From Winogradskyella psychrotolerans RS-3 (GTDB lineage Bacteria; Bacteroidota; Bacteroidia; Flavobacteriales; Flavobacteriaceae), in the NCBI RefSeq assembly GCF_000427335.1, contig NZ_ATMR01000077.1, forward strand, positions 1-64,000: 64,000 bases of DNA, in the 5' to 3' direction. Under the pieces are notes generated by a model. It was not told where the DNA came from. It worked only from the letters and a program-made list of their open reading frames with translations, and ran no database searches. Numbering within the stretch: position 1 is the stretch's first letter; every line of letters begins with the position of its first letter. This document shows positions 43,374 through 60,247 of this stretch, in pieces. The position numbers and the translations under genes were made by a program.

Positions 43374-44057
43374 TTAACTCTTACGTTGCACCACTTCAAA
43401 CACTTTGTTTTCGTCGCATTTTAATGTTTTACTAGGATATTTTAGAAGCAAAGCATAATCGTGAGTAGCCATTAAAATAGTGTTACCATTTTTATTAATG
43501 TCTTGCAAGACTTCCATGACTTCAACACTGGTTTGTGGATCTAAATTTCCGGTTGGCTCATCAGCTAAAATCAATTCAGGATCATTTAACAATGCACGTG
43601 CAATAGCAATACGTTGTTGTTCACCACCTGAAAGTTCATGTGGATATTTAAAGCCTTTGGTCTTCATTGCTACTTTATCTAAAACTGTATCGATACGGTC
43701 TTTAATACGGTCTTTTTCTTTCCAACCTGTAGCTTTTAACACGAATTCTAAATTTCCATTTATCGTACGATCTGGAAGTAATTTAAAATCCTGAAACACA
43801 ATACCCAATTTTCGTCTTAAAAAAGGAATGTCTTTTTCTTTCATGGTTTTTAAGTTGAAGTCCACAATAGAACCTTCACCTTCTGTTAATTGTAAATCAC
43901 CATAAAGTGTTTTCATGAAACTACTTTTTCCACTTCCTGTTTTACCAATAAGATAGACGAAATCGCCTTTCTTCATTTCAAAATTCACCTTAGACAGTAC
44001 CATACTGTCTCCTTGATAAATTGTAGCATCTCTAAGTTCTAAAACCGTTTCGGACAT
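43374..44057 (-). CDS. ftsE: Cell-division ABC ATPase FtsE
   Basis: 227 residues: Walker A GKTGSGKSSF, Q-loop VFQDFKLLPDRTINGNL, signature LSGGEQQR, Walker B ELILADEPTGNLDP and switch ATHDY. The LPDRT stretch after the Q-loop is a hallmark of FtsE, which with FtsX activates cell-wall hydrolases at the septum. FtsX is not adjacent here, which is usual in Bacteroidota. It follows the tryptophan operon on the same strand, separated by the CAACCAA array, where trpA would be expected. Complete. Confidence 0.88.
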   Translation of the reverse strand: MSETVLELRDATIYQGDSMVLSKVNFEMKKGDFVYLIGKTGSGKSSFMKTLYGDLQLTEGEGSIVDFNLKTMKEKDIPFLRRKLGIVFQDFKLLPDRTINGNLEFVLKATGWKEKDRIKDRIDTVLDKVAMKTKGFKYPHELSGGEQQRIAIARALLNDPELILADEPTGNLDPQTSVEVMEVLQDINKNGNTILMATHDYALLLKYPSKTLKCDENKVFEVVQRKS

Positions 44058-44151
44058 ATTATAGATATAAATAATTGGTAACTGTAAATGTATTGCTTAA
44101 AATTTCAAATCCAAAACATAAGTTTTAAATTCCAATTTAGAATTCTATTTT

Positions 44152-44210
44152 CAACCAACAACCAACAACCAACAACCAACAACCAACAACCAACAACCAA
44201 CAACCAACAA
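44152..44210. repeat. Heptanucleotide tandem array CAACCAA at the trpB stop
   Basis: About 8.4 perfect copies of CAACCAA. It ends exactly at the base before the trpB stop codon (TAG, complement of 44211-44213), so on the trpB strand it starts directly after the stop. Confidence 0.92.
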
Positions 44211-45398
44211 CTATAAATCAAAATAATCTATATAATTCTGTAAATCTTTGTCTCCACGACCAGATAAACTAATCACCACAACATCATTTGGTTTAAAAGT
44301 TTTATGTTTAAAAATAGCCAAAGCATGAGAACTTTCGATAGCCGGAATAATACCTTCTAACTGCGTTAATTCTAAGCCAGAATTCATGGCTTCGTCGTCG
44401 GTTGCAGAATAAAATTCACCACGACCTGTTTTATACAAATGTGAATGTAGTGGTCCAACACCAGGATAATCTAATCCTGCAGAAATTGAGTAAGGCTCTG
44501 TAATTTGTCCGTCTTTGGTTTGCATCAACAAGGTTTTACAACCATGAATTATCCCTTCTTTTCCTAACACAGAAGTGGCAGCACTTTCACCAGAATGAAT
44601 GCCTTTTCCAGCAGCCTCTACAGCAATAATACCTACGTCTTCATTGTCTAGAAAATGATGATACGTTCCTGCGGCATTACTTCCTCCACCAATACAAGCC
44701 ACAACATAATCTGGATTTTCTCGACCTTCTTTTTCCTTTAATTGCCATTTTATTTCTTCGGAAATCACCGATTGAAATTGCGTCACCATGTCTGGATAGG
44801 GATGTGGTCCTATAGCGGAACCAATAATGTAATGTGTGTCAACAGGATTGTTAATCCAGTCGCGAATGGCTTCATTAGTTGCATCTTTCAACGTTCGACT
44901 ACCAGATAACGCAGGTACCACTTTGGCGCCTAACATTTTCATTCGGGCGACGTTTGGTGCTTGACGTGCAATATCAATTTCTCCCATATAAACCACACAG
45001 TCAATACCTGTTAAGGCACAAACAGTTGCGGTTGCAACACCGTGTTGGCCAGCTCCGGTTTCGGCAATAATTCTGTTTTTACCTAAACGTTTTGCCATCA
45101 GAATTTGACCAATGGTATTGTTGATTTTGTGCGCGCCAGTATGATTTAAATCTTCACGTTTTAAATACACTTTGGTATTGTATTTTTCAGAAAGACGTTT
45201 CGCAAAATAGAGTGGAGAAGGACGACCAACATAATCTTTTAAAAGTTGATTGAACTCTTCTTGAAACGAAGGTTCTGCCATGATTTTTAAATAGTTTTGG
45301 CGCAATTCTTCTACATTAGGATAAAGCATTTCGGGAATGTATGCTCCACCGAATTCTCCGTAATAACCTTTTTCGTTGATTTTGTATGTATTTTTCAT
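44211..45398 (-). CDS. trpB: Tryptophan synthase beta chain
   Basis: 395 residues, standard TrpB1 length. [20 protein letters not shown] contains the PLP Lys (HTGAHK), [17 protein letters not shown] the Glu of the active site, and [15 protein letters not shown] the phosphate loop. TrpB condenses indole and serine to tryptophan, normally in complex with TrpA, which also supplies indole. Last trp gene of the operon here; trpA, usually next in flavobacteria, is missing. Upstream, 330 bp of repeats and a non-coding element separate it from trpF. Complete. Confidence 0.95.
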
Positions 45399-45756: not shown

Positions 45757-45830
45757 CTAACACCTAACACCTAACACCTAACACCTAACACCTAACAGCT
45801 AACAGCTAACAGCTAACAGCTAACAGCTAA
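45757..45830. repeat. Heptanucleotide array CTAACAC x5 then CTAACAG x5 at the trpF stop
   Basis: Five copies of CTAACAC (45757-45791) switch to five of CTAACAG (45792-45826) plus CTAA. The trpF stop codon (complement of 45820-45822) lies inside the last copies. Confidence 0.92.
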
Positions 45831-46437
45831 TTACATTATGTTTAAACGTTTTCAATTCCTCCACATTCTTCAATCCAGGTTCAATTTCAAATTTACTATT
45901 AACGTCAATAGCGTAACAATATTTTGAAGCTGGACTTTCTTTAAATTCTTTTATTTTTTCAATTTCATGTAATCCAATACCACCACTTAAAAAATACGGT
46001 TTGGTTGACGGATACTGTTCTAATACATTCCAATTGAACGTGTAACCATTTCCGCCTGGTAATTGTCCTTTTGTATCAAATAAGAAATAATCACATACAT
46101 CTTCATAAGGTTGAAGCACATCAAAGTTGAATTCATCTTTAATGCTAAACACCTTTATAACTTCAACAGCGTTTATCGCAGCGCAATATTCAGGAGATTC
46201 GTGTCCATGTAATTGCACGGCTTGTAAGTTGAATTTTTTAATAGTGTCTTTCACTATTTCTAGTTCTTCATCCACAAAAACACCAACTTTTTTTATTGAT
46301 TTTGGCAATTCAGGAATACTAGAATCAAAATGTCTGGCTGATTTTTTATAAAATATAAAACCGAGATAGTCTGGCAGCAAATTAGCCACAGCTTCTAGGT
46401 TCTCCTTATATTTCATGCCGCAGACTTTTAGTTTCAT
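45820..46437 (-). CDS. trpF: Phosphoribosylanthranilate isomerase
   Basis: 205 residues from MKLKVCGMKYKENLEAVANL; an ATG two codons upstream is equally possible. The reading further upstream (MRDEIPAFARM) is a REP palindrome, not protein. Motifs: LKVCGMKY at strand 1 with the catalytic Cys, VGVFVDEELEIV, VQLHGHESPEYC, FLFDTKGQLPGGNGYTFNW (catalytic Asp) and PYFLSGGIGLHEIEKI. TrpF converts phosphoribosylanthranilate to CdRP. The last residues (ISC and stop) derive from the heptamer array that has invaded its 3' end. Complete otherwise. Confidence 0.92.
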   Translation of the reverse strand: MKLKVCGMKYKENLEAVANLLPDYLGFIFYKKSARHFDSSIPELPKSIKKVGVFVDEELEIVKDTIKKFNLQAVQLHGHESPEYCAAINAVEVIKVFSIKDEFNFDVLQPYEDVCDYFLFDTKGQLPGGNGYTFNWNVLEQYPSTKPYFLSGGIGLHEIEKIKEFKESPASKYCYAIDVNSKFEIEPGLKNVEELKTFKHNVISC

Positions 46438-46440
46438 CTT

Positions 46441-46463
46441 CATTCTCGCGAAAGCGGGAATCT
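46441..46463. repeat. REP-like palindrome, family 1 variant
   Basis: CATTCTCGCGAAAGCGGGAA plus TCT: stem TCTCGC/GCGGGA around GAAA. It abuts the trpF start. Confidence 0.7.
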
Positions 46464-46510
46464 CATCACGCATTCGACTTTTTTAAATTATTATGTATGT
46501 TATGTGTTAA

Positions 46511-46675: not shown

Positions 46676-46706
46676 GACCTGCTAGGTTTTATAAACCTGC
46701 TAGGTC
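46676..46706. repeat. REP-like palindrome, family 2, overlapping the trpC stop
   Basis: GACCTGCTAGGTTT and AAACCTGCTAGGTC form an inverted repeat. On the trpC strand it encodes the last residues DLAGL and the stop. Confidence 0.75.
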
Positions 46707-47477
46707 TTTTATAAATTGAGCAGCACTCGCTCCAGGGTTATCTGTTTTCATAAAGTTTTCACCGATTAAAAAGCCTTTGTAACCATAAGGCTGTAATTCT
46801 TTGATGGCGTTCACAGAACTAATACCTGATTCTGATACTTTTACAAAATCATTTGGTATTAATGCACTTAATTGTTTTGAGATGTCTAAACTGACTTCAA
46901 ATGTTTTTAAATTTCTATTGTTTATACCTAGCATATCTAAAGATGGCATAATTGACTTGTGTAATTCGTCTTCGTTATGGACTTCTAATAACACATCAAG
47001 ATTGAGGCTTTTAGCTAATTCAGAAAACTGCTTAATTTCGGCTTTAGTTAATATGGCTGCTATTAGTAAAATAGCATCTGCACCAATGGCTTTGGCTTCA
47101 ATAATCTGATATTCATCAATTATAAATTCTTTTCGAAGCAAAGGTAATTCGCAATTTTCTCTAGCAATCATTAAATCGTCCATGGAACCGCCAAAATAAA
47201 TCTCGTCCGTTAAAATAGACATGCCACACACTCCTGCGTTTTCGTAACCAATGGCAACATCTTCAACCAAAGCAGTATCATTTATAATGGATTTAGAAGG
47301 CGATTTGCGTTTAAATTCTGCAATAACACCAGTCTGACTTGCTCTTAATTTTTCAGACAATGACCTTGTTTTCATTCCGAAATAAGGTAGCTGTTCATAA
47401 GCTTTAATAGGGATTAGTTCTTTTTTAAGATTAACCTCTTTGCGTTTGTCTATTACTATTTTGTCTAAGATGTTCAT
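46689..47477 (-). CDS. trpC: Indole-3-glycerol-phosphate synthase
   Basis: 262 residues. GVIAEFKRKSPSKSIINDTA holds the catalytic Lys/Glu region, then VCGMSILTDEIYFGGSMDDL, PLLRKEFIIDEYQIIEAKAI (K-E-F-I-I-D) and LGINNRNLKTFEVSLDIS, VSESGISS and GFLIGENFMK. The enzyme makes indole-3-glycerol phosphate from CdRP. Its start overlaps the trpD stop by 4 bp, so the two are coupled. The C-terminal DLAGL and stop are formed by a REP palindrome that appears to have replaced the original end. Complete and functional-looking. Confidence 0.94.
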   Translation of the reverse strand: MNILDKIVIDKRKEVNLKKELIPIKAYEQLPYFGMKTRSLSEKLRASQTGVIAEFKRKSPSKSIINDTALVEDVAIGYENAGVCGMSILTDEIYFGGSMDDLMIARENCELPLLRKEFIIDEYQIIEAKAIGADAILLIAAILTKAEIKQFSELAKSLNLDVLLEVHNEDELHKSIMPSLDMLGINNRNLKTFEVSLDISKQLSALIPNDFVKVSESGISSVNAIKELQPYGYKGFLIGENFMKTDNPGASAAQFIKDLAGL

Positions 47478-48466
47478 TTGCTTAATTCAATTAGTTTATA
47501 TAAACTTTGTTTTGCTTTTCCACTAACAAGAGATTCTTTCGCCAATTCAAATCCTTCCTTATGTGAAATTTGTTTGGCAGTAGCAATGGCCAATCCGGCA
47601 TTAGCACATACCACATTATGTTGCGCTTCTGTACCTTGATAATTGATAACGCTTTTAAAAATTTCTGCAGCCATTTTCACACTGTTTCCTCCAAAAATTT
47701 CGGATTGTTGAATTTGTTTGACACCTAAGTCAAGCGGTTCAAATAAGGTTTCTGCTGTATTAGAAATCACTTTCGTTTTTCCTGTTAACGAGATTTCATC
47801 ATAACCATCCAAAGCATGAACTATGGCATAGTTTTTATCCGATTCTTGATATAAATAACTGTATAATCGCAATAATTCAAGATTAAAAACACCAACCATT
47901 TGATTTTTTGGAAATGCAGGATTTACCATCGGTCCTAACATATTGAAAAAGGTTTTTACACCCAATTCTTTTCGTATTGGAGCCACATTTTTCATTGCAG
48001 GATGAAACAAAGGTGCATGTAAAACACAAATACCAGCCTCATCGATACTACGTTTTAAAAAGTCAGTATCACTTGTAAATTTTATGCCTAAATATTCCAT
48101 AACATTTGAAGATCCACAAGCAGAGGATACACCATAATTACCATGTTTAGTAACATGGACTCCTGCACCTGCTGTCACAAATGATGATAAAGTTGAAATG
48201 TTGAAAGTGTCTTTGCCGTCACCTCCGGTTCCACACAAATCGATAGTCTCGTAGTTATCTAAATTTACTGGAATGCATAACTCTAATAATGCATCTCTAA
48301 AACCTCGAAGTTCTTCCGTGGTAATACTTCTCATCATATAAACGGTTAAGAATGACGCAATTTGACTTTGGTTATATTTTCCTTCGGATATGTTGACCAA
48401 GACATTTTTTGCTTCTTCACTAGAGATGCTTTCTTGGTTGATGAGTCTATTTAATAATTGTTTCAT
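47474..48466 (-). CDS. trpD: Anthranilate phosphoribosyltransferase
   Basis: 330 residues. DLCGTGGDGKDTFNISTLSS (PRPP-binding GTGGD), HGNYGVSSACGSSNVMEYLG and FFNMLGPMVNPAFPKNQMVG with HALDGYDEISLTGKTKV are the family signatures. It joins anthranilate to PRPP. It overlaps trpC by 4 bp downstream. Directly before its ATG is a small hairpin (TTCCGT/ACGGAA) that also precedes trpG, and beyond that the non-coding element and heptamer array that separate it from trpG. Complete. Confidence 0.95.
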   Translation of the reverse strand: MKQLLNRLINQESISSEEAKNVLVNISEGKYNQSQIASFLTVYMMRSITTEELRGFRDALLELCIPVNLDNYETIDLCGTGGDGKDTFNISTLSSFVTAGAGVHVTKHGNYGVSSACGSSNVMEYLGIKFTSDTDFLKRSIDEAGICVLHAPLFHPAMKNVAPIRKELGVKTFFNMLGPMVNPAFPKNQMVGVFNLELLRLYSYLYQESDKNYAIVHALDGYDEISLTGKTKVISNTAETLFEPLDLGVKQIQQSEIFGGNSVKMAAEIFKSVINYQGTEAQHNVVCANAGLAIATAKQISHKEGFELAKESLVSGKAKQSLYKLIELSK

Positions 48467-48469
48467 ATC

Positions 48470-48498
48470 AATGTTCCGTAAAACGGAATATCTTTTTA
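48470..48498 (-). repeat. Hairpin element immediately upstream of trpD
   Basis: AATGTTCCGTAAAACGGAAT followed by ATCTTTTTAA: a 6-bp stem TTCCGT/ACGGAA. It ends 8 bp before the start codon and is nearly identical to 49330-49359 before trpG. Confidence 0.7.
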
Positions 48499-48502
48499 AA
48501 TG

Positions 48503-48680
48503 TAATTTCTATTCTTTCTTTTATCTCTGTTCATTTTGCCTTGATGCAAACTGCGAAGCAAATCATGAGTTCCGATTTTTCACTCCTTATTTCTGAATTT
48601 TGATGTTTCGGACGTTGTCGAAATTTGGGACATTAATTTTTACTAAATATTATATTCTTCCCAAATTGTATTTTAATTTT
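48503..48680. repeat. Non-coding element copy B (trpD-trpG gap)
   Basis: Shorter relative of the element at 45481-45756, with the same ordered blocks (see there): TTCATTTTGCCTTGA, AGTTCCGATTTTTCACTCCT, TCGAAATTTGGGAC and terminal TATTTTAATTTTT, followed at once by a heptamer array. No gene seen. Confidence 0.65.
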
Positions 48681-48764
48681 TTCTCACTTCTCACTTCTCA
48701 CTTCTCACTTCTCACTTCTCACTTCTCACTTCTCACTTCTCACTTCTCACTTCTCACTTCTCAC
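48681..48764. repeat. Heptanucleotide array TTCTCAC x12 at the trpG stop
   Basis: Twelve perfect copies. The trpG stop codon TGA (complement of 48754-48756) and its last residues (SEK) lie inside the array. Confidence 0.93.
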
Positions 48765-49326
48765 TGTTTACCCAATTTTCTAAAATCTGTTTTCCATTAG
48801 GTGTCAGCACCGACTCAGGATGATATTGAACACCTTTTACATCGTAAACTTTATGTCTTAATGACATTATTTGACCGTTGTCGTCAAAAGACGTAGCTTC
48901 TAAACAATCTGGTAAATTGGCATTAACGACCCATGAATGATATCTGCCCACTTCAAAAGTTTTGCCTAGTCCTTTAAAAAGGGATTCATCATCAACTGAA
49001 AGTGTAATGCTAGTTGCTACACCATGATAAACATTATCTAAATTTTCTAATGAACCACCAAAAACTTCACCAATAGCTTGTTGCCCTAAACAAACACCTA
49101 AGATACTTTTGGTTGGAGCATAAGTTTCTATAATCTGTTTTAATAAACCGGCTTCATCTGGGACACCAGGTCCTGGCGATAACACAATTTTCTCAAAAGC
49201 ATCGACTTCTTCTAGCGTTAGTTTATCGTTTCGTTTTACGGTGACTTCACAATCTAAATCTTCTAAATAATGAACTAAATTGTATGTGAAACTGTCGTAA
49301 TTATCTATGACTAATATTTTTTTCAT
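48754..49326 (-). CDS. trpG: Anthranilate synthase component II (glutamine amidotransferase)
   Basis: 190 residues of a class I amidotransferase: [46 protein letters not shown] (nucleophile Cys) and [14 protein letters not shown] (catalytic His-Glu). It supplies ammonia to TrpE for anthranilate. Lies between trpE and trpD. The final SEK and stop are read from a GTGAGAA (TTCTCAC) array, so the array has overrun the original 3' end without destroying the active site. A hairpin element precedes the start. Complete. Confidence 0.94.
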
Positions 49327-49329
49327 CGC

Positions 49330-49359
49330 AATGTTCCGTGAAACGGAATATCTTTTTAA
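49330..49359 (-). repeat. Hairpin element immediately upstream of trpG
   Basis: AATGTTCCGTGAAACGGAAT followed by ATCTTTTTAA; differs from the trpD copy by one base in the loop, stem intact. Ends 4 bp before the ATG. Confidence 0.7.
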
Positions 49360-49379
49360 TTATACTTCAATTTTTTAAA

Positions 49380-49412: not shown

Positions 49413-50813
49413 TTAAATTTCCTCAGCCTGTTCAATCGCTTTTGTTAAAGCACCAAGCTTATTATAAACTTCTTGCAATTCACTTTCGGCTTCAGATTTG
49501 GCAACTATTCCTGCTCCTGCTTGCCAAAATAATTTATGATTCTGACTTAAAAATGTTCTAATCATAATGGCATGATTAAAGTTGCCGTTAAAATCCATAA
49601 AGCCGATAGCTCCACCATAATAACCTCTGCTTGTTTTTTCATACTTTTCAATCAACTGCATGGCTTTGTGTTTTGGTGCTCCACTTAGGGTTCCGGCAGG
49701 AAATGTGTCTGCAACCACTTGCATGGTATCGGTATTTTTGTGAATTGTACCTGTAACTTTACTCACTAAATGTATGACGTGAGAGAAGAATTGTACTTCT
49801 CTATAATTTTCGACAGTAACATTACTTCCGTTTCTACTTAGGTCGTTTCTTGCCAAGTCAACTAACATCACATGCTCACTGTTTTCTTTGTCGTCTTTTA
49901 TTAATTCTTCAGCTAATTGCGCATCTTTAAGGTCATTTCCACTTCGCTTAAAAGTACCAGCAATAGGGTGAATTTCGGCTTTACCATCACTAACCACTAA
50001 TTGTGCCTCTGGAGAGCTTCCGAATATTTTAAAATTCCCATAATCAAAATAGAATAGGTAAGGGGATGGGTTAATACTTCTTAAGGCTCTGTATACATTA
50101 AACTCGTCTCCGCTAAATTGTTGCGAAAATTGTTTAGACAGTACCAATTGAAAGACATCTCCACGGCCACAATGCTTTTTTGCCAGTTCTACATTTGCTT
50201 TATATTCCTCATCTGTAAGATTAGATTCAATGTCTCCTTTGGGTTTAAAATCGTAAGAGGCATATTGTCTCGTTTGGATCAATTGTAAAATGTCGTCAAT
50301 GTTATTTTCGCTATGAAAACAATGCGCAAAAATATAAGCTTCATTTTTTTGATGATCTATAGCGATGATATTTTGATAAACAGCGTAGTATATTTCAGGA
50401 ATAGAAACAGAGTTGTCTTTTTTTGAAATTTCGATATCTTCAAAATACTTTACCGCATCATAAGCCGTGTATCCAAAAATTCCATTATTGATAAACTTAA
50501 AGTCTTTGTTTGAATCCACTTTAAAACGTTGTGTAAACTTATGAATCTCTTCAATGACACCAACGGTTTGAATTAAGTTGCTCTTAGAGCTTCCATCAGG
50601 ATAGGTTTGAGAAATTGTATCACCTTCCACTTTTATAGAAGCGATAGGATTGCAGCAGATATATGAAAAATTGTTGTCGTTTGCATGATAATCACTACTC
50701 TCTAACAGAATACTATTTGGGAATTTATCTCTAATTTTAAGATAAATACTAACTGGCGTAATAGTGTCTGCTAATATTTTTTTATAATGTGTGTTTAAAC
50801 TAAATGTTTTCAT
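49413..50813 (-). CDS. trpE: Anthranilate synthase component I
   Basis: 466 residues. The N-terminal half has LLESSDYHANDNNFSYICCN (LLES region of the Trp feedback site). The chorismate-binding half has FQLVLSKQFSQQFSGDEFNV, SPYLFYFDYG, GSSPEAQLVV, HPIAGTFKRS (PIAGT), DLARNDLSR and PAGTLSGAPKHKAMQLIEKY. TrpE with TrpG makes anthranilate from chorismate and is normally inhibited by tryptophan. First structural gene of the operon; its 5' leader carries a leader peptide and terminator (attenuator). Complete. Confidence 0.95.
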   Translation of the reverse strand: MKTFSLNTHYKKILADTITPVSIYLKIRDKFPNSILLESSDYHANDNNFSYICCNPIASIKVEGDTISQTYPDGSSKSNLIQTVGVIEEIHKFTQRFKVDSNKDFKFINNGIFGYTAYDAVKYFEDIEISKKDNSVSIPEIYYAVYQNIIAIDHQKNEAYIFAHCFHSENNIDDILQLIQTRQYASYDFKPKGDIESNLTDEEYKANVELAKKHCGRGDVFQLVLSKQFSQQFSGDEFNVYRALRSINPSPYLFYFDYGNFKIFGSSPEAQLVVSDGKAEIHPIAGTFKRSGNDLKDAQLAEELIKDDKENSEHVMLVDLARNDLSRNGSNVTVENYREVQFFSHVIHLVSKVTGTIHKNTDTMQVVADTFPAGTLSGAPKHKAMQLIEKYEKTSRGYYGGAIGFMDFNGNFNHAIMIRTFLSQNHKLFWQAGAGIVAKSEAESELQEVYNKLGALTKAIEQAEEI

Positions 50814-50891: not shown

Positions 50892-50928
50892 AAAAAAGGC
50901 TTGTCGTGAATGACAAGCCTTTTTTTTA
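50892..50928 (-). terminator. Attenuator terminator of the trp operon
   Basis: On the minus strand GGCTTGTC (50919-50912) pairs with GACAAGCC (50905-50898), loop ATTCAC, followed by six T. It lies 28 bp after the leader peptide stop and about 80 bp before trpE. The sequence TTCACGA (50910-50904) in its loop and 3' arm is complementary to TCGTGAA at the leader peptide stop (50961-50955), giving an alternative antiterminator pairing. Confidence 0.8.
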
Positions 50929-50955
50929 TATAAGTATTACATACCAAGGATTAGT

Positions 50956-51012
50956 TCACGAACGTAAGTTTGAGAAATTCCACCACCAAGTATGATTTGT
51001 ATTTATTTTCAT
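50956..51012 (-). CDS. trpL: trp operon leader peptide with three consecutive Trp codons
   Basis: An 18-residue frame, MKINTNHTWWWNFSNLRS, with codons TGG TGG TGG at 50988-50980 and stop TGA at 50958-50956. It is preceded by a perfect promoter (TTG-N19-TATCTTTG) and followed by a terminator and then trpE, the classical layout for ribosome-mediated attenuation. When charged Trp-tRNA is scarce, a ribosome would stall on the Trp codons, leaving the stop-codon region (TTCGTGAA) free to pair with TTCACGA in the terminator and prevent termination. When tryptophan is ample, the ribosome reaches the stop and covers that region, so the terminator forms. Trp is otherwise rare; three in a row in an 18-residue frame is not plausible by chance. 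Confidence 0.85.
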   Translation of the reverse strand: MKINTNHTWWWNFSNLRS

Positions 51013-51020
51013 CTGAACAT

Positions 51021-51050
51021 CAAAGATAGAAATCAAAATTCGGATTTCAA
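51021..51050 (-). promoter_or_regulatory. Promoter of the trp operon
   Basis: TTG (51050-51048), 19-bp spacer, TATCTTTG (51028-51021) on the minus strand. The transcript would start within a few bases of the leader ATG at 51012. Confidence 0.8.
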
Positions 51051-51063
51051 ACACTTTAGGAAA

Positions 51064-60023: not shown

Positions 60024-60107
60024 GCAAGAGACAAGAGACAAGAAGCAAGAGACAAGAGACAAGAATCAAGAGGCAAGAGGCAAGAGGCAAGAGGCAAGAG
60101 GCAAGAG
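60024..60107. repeat. Heptanucleotide array GCAAGAG/ACAAGAG at the adaptor gene stop
   Basis: Twelve units of seven bases, GCAAGAG, ACAAGAG and ACAAGAA variants at first, then five perfect GCAAGAG copies. Starts 2 bp after the stop codon. Confidence 0.88.
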
Positions 60108-60143
60108 AAAAGATAAAAGAGTATAGATAAAAGAAATATTTTT

Positions 60144-60199
60144 AACCAACAACCAACAACCAACAACCAACAACCAACAACCAACAACCAACAACCAAC
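60144..60199. repeat. Heptanucleotide array AACCAAC upstream of the ABC ATPase
   Basis: Eight perfect copies of AACCAAC, the same unit as at 44152-44210, followed by CTAACAG-like units (60207-60232) resembling those at trpF. The 226-bp gap holds only these arrays. Confidence 0.92.
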
Positions 60200-60247
60200 A
60201 ACTAAGGGCTAACAGCCAAAAGCCAACAGCTAAAAAATATAAATACA

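Follow-up and report, generated by a model that had tools for sequence, protein, structure and literature searches.

Introduction

The leader studied here belongs to the Rfam family RF01692 (Bacteroid-trp, 'Bacteroidete tryptophan peptide leader RNA'), which Weinberg et al. 2010 (PMC2864571) include in their Table 1. In Flavobacterium psychrophilum, an element conserved before the trp operon has been compared with the E. coli attenuator (PMC6414381), and strong clues for leader-peptide attenuation have been reported upstream of amino-acid operons of the same species, with structured 5' elements before pheA and hisG (PMC9723704). These candidates are flavobacterial like the present leader, the passages that deal with them do not name trp, and 'trp' and 'tryptophan' have 0 occurrences in the main text of that paper. 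According to a 2010 survey, leader-peptide systems had until then been demonstrated in Proteobacteria and Actinobacteria alone, and the survey contributed Bacillus hisS as a further case; T-boxes and TRAP control amino-acid or trp genes in other phyla (PMC3766115). Our literature search, which was short on subscription journals and supplements, returned no published loop/3'-arm antiterminator for a Bacteroidota trp leader and no published functional test of ribosome-mediated attenuation in flavobacteria.

In the enterobacterial trpL leader, consecutive Trp codons are followed by a segment that is free when the ribosome stalls, covered when it reaches the stop codon, and in competition with an intrinsic terminator. 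The usual arrangement is that the antiterminator uses the 5' arm of the terminator. We take the features of RF01692 to be a short ORF with two or more Trp codons and a 3' end overlapping an intrinsic terminator.

An initial annotation of the region upstream of trpE in Winogradskyella psychrotolerans RS-3 had left undecided whether such a leader was described for this group. It is described, as RF01692, in Table 1 of the 2010 paper and in F. psychrophilum, and the element is thus not new: it is a real, well-formed attenuator of a known RNA family. The new content is a covariation-supported antiterminator, its unusual topology, and its omission from the printed RF01692 model. Since the kind of element is already known, the value lies in the mechanism, and we report here the computed parts of the leader, their conservation, their fixed spacing and their covariation.

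Loci and sequence sets

The window is a stretch of 64,000 nt of contig NZ_ATMR01000077.1 of W. psychrotolerans RS-3, with the trp leader on the minus strand. Thirty of the 56 matches found in the genus were read (29 loci plus L001, this locus); neither alignment A1 nor the set of 35 divergent loci used below includes the 29. A1 contains 129 sequences: 108 loci of the family, 7 further loci of the same family and 14 from other families of the class. None of the counts of 108 includes L031, which is truncated by the end of its contig, and L119, L122 and L133 were dropped as duplicates of L035, L072 and L109. The held-out set of 23 family loci missed by the Rfam model excludes L166, L188 and L189, for which upstream DNA is absent, and L185, which has no consecutive Trp codons. 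The terminators of L047, L088 and L102 were found by a looser rule only.

For spacing and ribosome footprint, 137 of 144 loci were kept after removal of seven whose best pairing lay outside 12-22 nt; with the same exclusion of off-position pairings, 147 of 158 loci were used for stability and stepwise folding. In the stepwise folds a stalled ribosome was represented by masking the sequence up to 10 nt past the Trp codons. The footprint limits in the folding and spacing tests are values of general knowledge.

The leader at this locus and its RNA family

Direct reading of the sequence between 50892 and 51051 on the minus strand found every part that had been proposed in the initial annotation (Table 1).

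Table 1. Features of the trp leader, the trp genes and neighbouring repeats (window positions unless a locus or contig is given).
Feature	Position	Strand	Remarks
TTTG, -33-like promoter element	51048..51051	-	19 nt before the -7 box; read directly
TATCTTTG, -7 box	51021..51028	-	8 nt before the leader ATG
Leader peptide ORF MKINTNHTWWWNFSNLRS and stop TGA	50956..51012	-	18 codons; read directly
Leader hairpin, 5' side, CATACTTGGTGG	50983..50994	-	Rfam structure and MFE; weak in the genus
TGG TGG TGG (TGGTGGTGG)	50980..50988	-	putative tryptophan sensor codons
Antiterminator segment TCGTGAA	50955..50961	-	overlaps the peptide stop codon; fixed spacing from last TGG, covariation
Leader hairpin, 3' side, CCTTGGTATG	50940..50949	-	Rfam structure and MFE
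RF01692 match	50912-51035	-	cmscan
Intrinsic terminator AAAAAAGGCTTGTC-ATTCAC-GACAAGCCTTTTTT	50892..50925	-	14-bp stem including A and U tracts, 6-nt loop
TTCACGA, antiterminator target	50904..50910	-	terminator loop and GA of 3' arm
trpE, first structural gene	49413..50813	-	best NCBIfam TIGR00564, 436.4 bits, below cut-off 517.7
trpG	48754..49326	-	TIGR00566, 193.5 bits, above cut-off 121.05
trpD	47474..48466	-	TIGR01245, 312.5 bits, above cut-off
trpC	46689..47477	-	NF001377, 280.6 bits, above cut-off 260
trpF	45820..46473	-	NF002295, 145.4 bits, below cut-off 216
trpB	44211..45398	-	TIGR00263, 578 bits, above cut-off
Heptamer tandem arrays	44152-44211, 45757-45830, 48681-48765		
56-nt repeat copies	48452-48507, 49312-49367		
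hisG leader	G000:C199 (L190:1187-1240)		terminator from about 1272
pheA leader	G000:C102 (L191:1295-1351)		terminator from about 1393

The string TGGTGGTGG occurs a single time in the 64 kb, both strands counted, and trpE starts 79 nt downstream of the last base of the terminator, followed by trpG, trpD, trpC, trpF and trpB. With cmscan, the leader scored 69.6 bits against RF01692 (cut-off 49; E 1.4e-6 for the window) over model positions 1-131 of 131, with several non-standard pairs, mostly in the outer stem. This was the sole Rfam family above cut-off in the whole window, where neither trpL (RF00513) reached its gathering score nor the T-box (RF00230) its cut-off, and the only RF01692 match found in the 4.34-Mb genome.

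The locus is like RF01692 in its full-length model score, in the tryptophan-synthesis genes downstream, in its short Trp-rich ORF and in the intrinsic terminator at its 3' end. The two differ in extent, since the printed model stops at the 5' arm of the terminator (GGCUUGUC) whereas this locus continues into the full terminator. They also differ in structure: the structure line of RF01692 holds the leader hairpin only and lacks the antiterminator and terminator pairings, on which the supplement of Weinberg 2010 may say more. A simple terminator scan reported none at this locus, apparently because the U tract was counted as paired to the A tract, and a sigma-70 promoter scan gave no useful information either.

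We take the TTTG element to be the -33 part of a flavobacterial promoter. The -7 consensus of flavobacteria is TAnnTTTG, and their genes are described as being without Shine-Dalgarno sequences (PMC9723704). In 144 of 158 loci a TAnnTTTG box precedes the leader ATG by 4-30 nt, the remainder being 3 loci without an ATG by the rule used and 11 without a box. The 'nearly leaderless' start proposed for this leader fits the present locus, where the 8-nt gap suggests a predicted 5' leader of a few nt; as a general trait it fails, given a gap of 4-30 nt across loci.

Spread of the leader among relatives

At E <= 0.001, RF01692 matches were found in 56 of 60 genomes of the genus and in 109 of 149 genomes of the Flavobacteriaceae, 95 of them above cut-off; the counted genomes are related and these counts are hence not independent. 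In the class, 27 of 395 genomes had a match at the same threshold (13 Flavobacteriaceae and 14 of other families), a low count from which absence need not follow because the RF01692 model misses diverged leaders. Forty family genomes had no match, and 27 of these contain TrpE at E <= 1e-60. When those with both TrpE and upstream DNA were examined, 23 of 24 carried at least two consecutive TGG codons, in a candidate leader frame, within 250 nt before trpE; the exception, L185, had no consecutive Trp codons before trpE.

With tblastn, trpE was found downstream of the match in 153 of 159 loci. It was not found after the match in L031 (cut by the contig end), L113, L127, L128, L130 and L131. The last five belong to other families of the class, and no trpE was detected within 1.5 kb of their matches with the TrpE of the window as query. 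All 108 usable family loci had consecutive Trp codons, three in 105 loci and two in the other 3. As judged from these genomes, a putative attenuator of this type sits before most of the trpE genes examined in the Flavobacteriaceae.

A segment at fixed distance from the Trp codons is predicted to pair with the terminator loop and 3' arm

At this locus TCGTGAA is complementary to TTCACGA, which comprises the terminator loop and the beginning of its 3' arm. Taken alone this complementarity is borderline (p 0.03 against shuffles); p did not exceed 0.05 in 76 of 108 family loci and in 8 of 29 genus relatives, with a range of 0.015-0.43 in the genus. We thus rejected single-locus complementarity as proof, because shuffles match too often, and it is the comparison of relatives that convinces.

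The segment that best complements the terminator loop and 3' arm begins, in 103 of 108 family loci, 16-19 nt past the last TGG. The stop codon is 12, 15, 21 or 27 nt after the last TGG in 102 of 108 loci and lies overall at 6-30 nt. The last bases of the motif T(C/T)GTGA form the stop codon in 52 of 108 family loci; in 28 the motif lies inside the ORF in another frame, in 21 it comes after the stop, and 7 loci lack it. The motif is kept regardless of the reading frame, and is therefore conserved as RNA and not as peptide. When complementarity was scored in 12-nt windows along the leaders, the family mean was 15-17 for starts 12-18 nt after the Trp codons against a background of 0.6-4.1 for starts at most 8 nt or at least 22 nt after them. 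The 23 held-out leaders had the same peak position (14-15 at 14-18 nt versus 1.8-3.6 at <=8 and >=24), and quite different sequences still pair in them; the 14 loci of other families gave a flatter peak (10-12 versus 3-10).

We then turned to covariation. In A1, 85.4% of the cells of the 8-pair antiterminator helix were paired, with double changes at 5 of the 8 pairs and 26 double-change cells compared with 6.4 +/- 2.7 in shuffles (0/500). The inner six pairs were 95.6% paired, and the helix slid out of register gave 21-49%. As a positive control on the same 129 sequences, the 8-bp core of the terminator was 99.6% paired, with 49 double-change cells versus 5.9 in shuffles. A consensus fold of the whole alignment returned the terminator only. 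Most loci carry identical TCGTGA/TCACGA letters, so that the covariation rests on a minority, the 35 divergent loci. In these 35 loci without TCACGA, the segments scored 493 with their own targets and 349.5 +/- 23 with swapped ones (0/5000 permutations); with 31 distinct targets the values were 440 and 304 +/- 22 (0/5000). Among the best single cases are L187, where ACCGGAT pairs with ATCCGGT, L183 (GGATTCAG with CTGAATCC), L177 (TGCGATGAT with GTCATCGCG) and L081 (TTTGTCGCAAT with ATTGCGACAAG). Two family leaders, L105 and L171, have Trp codons and a terminator, but their pairing is weak and no convincing segment-loop match was seen.

The initial annotation had proposed this antiterminator from a single sequence and named the trp leaders of related flavobacteria as the place to check it. 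Both the check in relatives and the pairing itself came out positively, on the family matches, the held-out leaders, the fixed spacing, the covariation and the swap test.

Topology of the pairing

The partner of the segment is the terminator loop plus 3' arm in 103/108 family loci, 29/29 genus loci, 6/7 of the further family loci, 17/23 held-out loci and 9/14 loci of other families. In 4/108, 1/7, 4/23 and 1/14 loci of the family, further, held-out and other-family sets, respectively, the pairing has its centre on the loop and takes in some bases of the 5' arm. The 5' arm, with or without the loop, is the partner in four of the 14 other-family loci (L125, L128, L130 and L131) and in one of the 23 held-out loci (L180).

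The likeness to enterobacterial trpL that had been put forward for this leader is therefore to be divided. The logic of stalling and covering is shared. The topology is different: at this locus and in 103/108 family loci the loop and 3' arm are paired, against the 5' arm in trpL. On balance we lean towards the view that the trp leaders of the Flavobacteriaceae use a kinetic-only 'loop-capture' antiterminator, free of the reading frame and placed at a fixed distance after the Trp codons, that some other families pair the 5' arm, and that the topology has switched within one RNA family. Capture of a terminator loop would then suggest a workable alternative to the textbook antiterminator.

The leader hairpin

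The structure of the RF01692 model itself is a hairpin around the Trp-codon region. In 107 of 108 MFE folds of the family (a count made without a shuffled control), this region has its pairing partners beyond the antiterminator segment, and the hairpin has a median z of -2.04. The claim that the leader has only one alternative pairing is consequently not valid for the family, which has this second hairpin. In the genus the hairpin is weak: its median z there is -0.26, no better than shuffled sequence. At this locus z is +0.44 and 324 of 500 shuffles fold equally well, which weakens the sequestering hairpin as a trait of the locus.

These values bear on the idea that the Rfam hairpin alone is the switch, the position of the ribosome setting its formation and the TCGTGA/TCACGA match being incidental. 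That the Rfam model carries the hairpin, and the pairing and z values of the family, speak for it. However, the hairpin of this locus does not overlap the terminator and cannot by itself stop termination, in the genus it is no better than shuffles, and the pairing between segment and loop shows covariation and a constant spacing. We thus regard a hairpin-only switch as improbable.

Folding and proposed mechanism

The whole folded leader had a z of -4.16, with 0/200 shuffles as good, most of the energy being supplied by the terminator. In all of the 147 loci the terminator was more stable than the antiterminator (at this locus, about -18.9 versus -4.6 kcal/mol), and it belonged to the MFE structure in 144 of 147 once the 3' arm was complete. 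Since the terminator wins at equilibrium, the switch must be kinetic.

Stepwise folds with the ribosome stalled at the Trp codons gave, at some step, an MFE structure with four or more antiterminator pairs in 105/105 family loci (median 9 steps) and 26/26 genus loci. With the ribosome at the stop codon, the same number of pairs was obtained in 1/105 and 0/26 loci, and without a ribosome the antiterminator appeared at some step in 36/105 and 25/26. As a control, dinucleotide-shuffled leaders joined to the same terminators gave a comparable helix (>=4 pairs, loop/3' arm) in 263/525 cases, compared with 105/105 for the real ones; with such a high background, we do not regard stepwise folding as strong proof. 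Taking the footprint size as generally assumed, a ribosome that has reached the stop codon would cover at least part of the segment in 136 of 137 loci. Two general traits of leader-peptide attenuators, a terminator and an antiterminator that exclude each other and a segment that a stalled ribosome leaves free and a ribosome at the stop codon covers, were in this way found at the level of folding and spacing.

The course of events that we infer, together with the sign of the response and an action that is kinetic rather than at equilibrium, is as follows. RNA polymerase would begin transcription a few nt ahead of the leader ATG, and a ribosome would set out to translate the 18-codon peptide. 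When Trp-tRNA is scarce, the ribosome would halt on the TGG codons and leave TCGTGA, 18 nt further on, exposed. This segment could then pair with TCACGA as the terminator loop and the first bases of the 3' arm emerge, which would block closure of the terminator so that trpE is transcribed. When Trp-tRNA is plentiful, the ribosome would reach the stop codon in or beside TCGTGA and cover the segment, and the terminator would form. In much of the family, the hairpin between the Trp region and the sequence downstream may hide TCGTGA when there is no translation, probably poorly so in the genus. Folding thus predicts that an untranslated leader should terminate in most of the family and perhaps not in this genus, for which this arm of the mechanism is unsupported because the antiterminator appears without a ribosome in 25 of 26 loci.

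The opposite role for the segment-loop pairing is that it aids termination, for example by anchoring the hairpin as a pseudoknot. A pairing with the loop and 3' arm could indeed coexist topologically, in part, with a shortened stem. But no spacer separates the captured bases from the rest of the 3' arm, so that the full-length helices look sterically incompatible, and such a role would reduce expression under tryptophan shortage, the opposite of what a biosynthetic operon requires; we consider it very unlikely. Least probable of all is control by a T-box, a TRAP-type protein-binding leader or a tryptophan riboswitch with a short frame present by chance: although T-boxes and TRAP do serve such genes in other phyla, RF01692 is the only Rfam family above cut-off in the window, the GAG/TAG triplets that make up TRAP repeats are absent between the leader ATG and the terminator, and consecutive Trp codons recur throughout the 108 usable family loci, as well as in 23 of the 24 examined loci missed by the model.

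Comparison of relatives thus favours what had first been read from one sequence, a ribosome-mediated trp attenuator in which a segment at the peptide stop codon pairs with the terminator loop and 3' arm. From sequence analysis, the leader is very probably a ribosome-mediated transcription attenuator of trpEGDCFB, a member of RF01692, with the mechanism proposed here. The conserved segment-loop pairing provides a defined and easily mutated target for a functional test of attenuation in flavobacteria.

Other features of the genome and of the trp locus

Two further leaders were observed in the same genome. Before hisG, a His-rich ORF (MTLIQLHHHFHIIAQAR) is followed by an intrinsic terminator, the 5' arm of which carries CGTTTGAG; the complementary sequence, CTCAAGCG, comes after the His codons. 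Before pheA, a Phe/Tyr-rich ORF (MNMNISRAYYNWFYFFFS) ending in FYFFFS precedes a terminator in whose 5' arm AGTCTCG is complementary to CGAGACT. Both complementarities were seen by eye, without a chance control, and the two leaders look like the usual 5'-arm antiterminator. Upstream of ilvD, candidate leader ORFs were present and no terminator was found.

In the trp locus, trpB is not adjoined by trpA; an FtsE-like gene comes next instead (window 43374-44211). A TrpA match lies on another contig (locus L193), and TGGTGG is absent from the first 1.6 kb of that locus. Tandem arrays of heptamers, with units CAACCAA, CTAACAC and TTCTCAC, are located at the 3' ends of trpB, trpF and trpG or a short way beyond them, and the window has two further period-7 arrays, at 60025-60121 and 60144-60202. 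Finally, a 56-nt stretch containing the palindrome TTCCGTNAAACGGAA is repeated, with 86% identity, across the starts of trpD and trpG.
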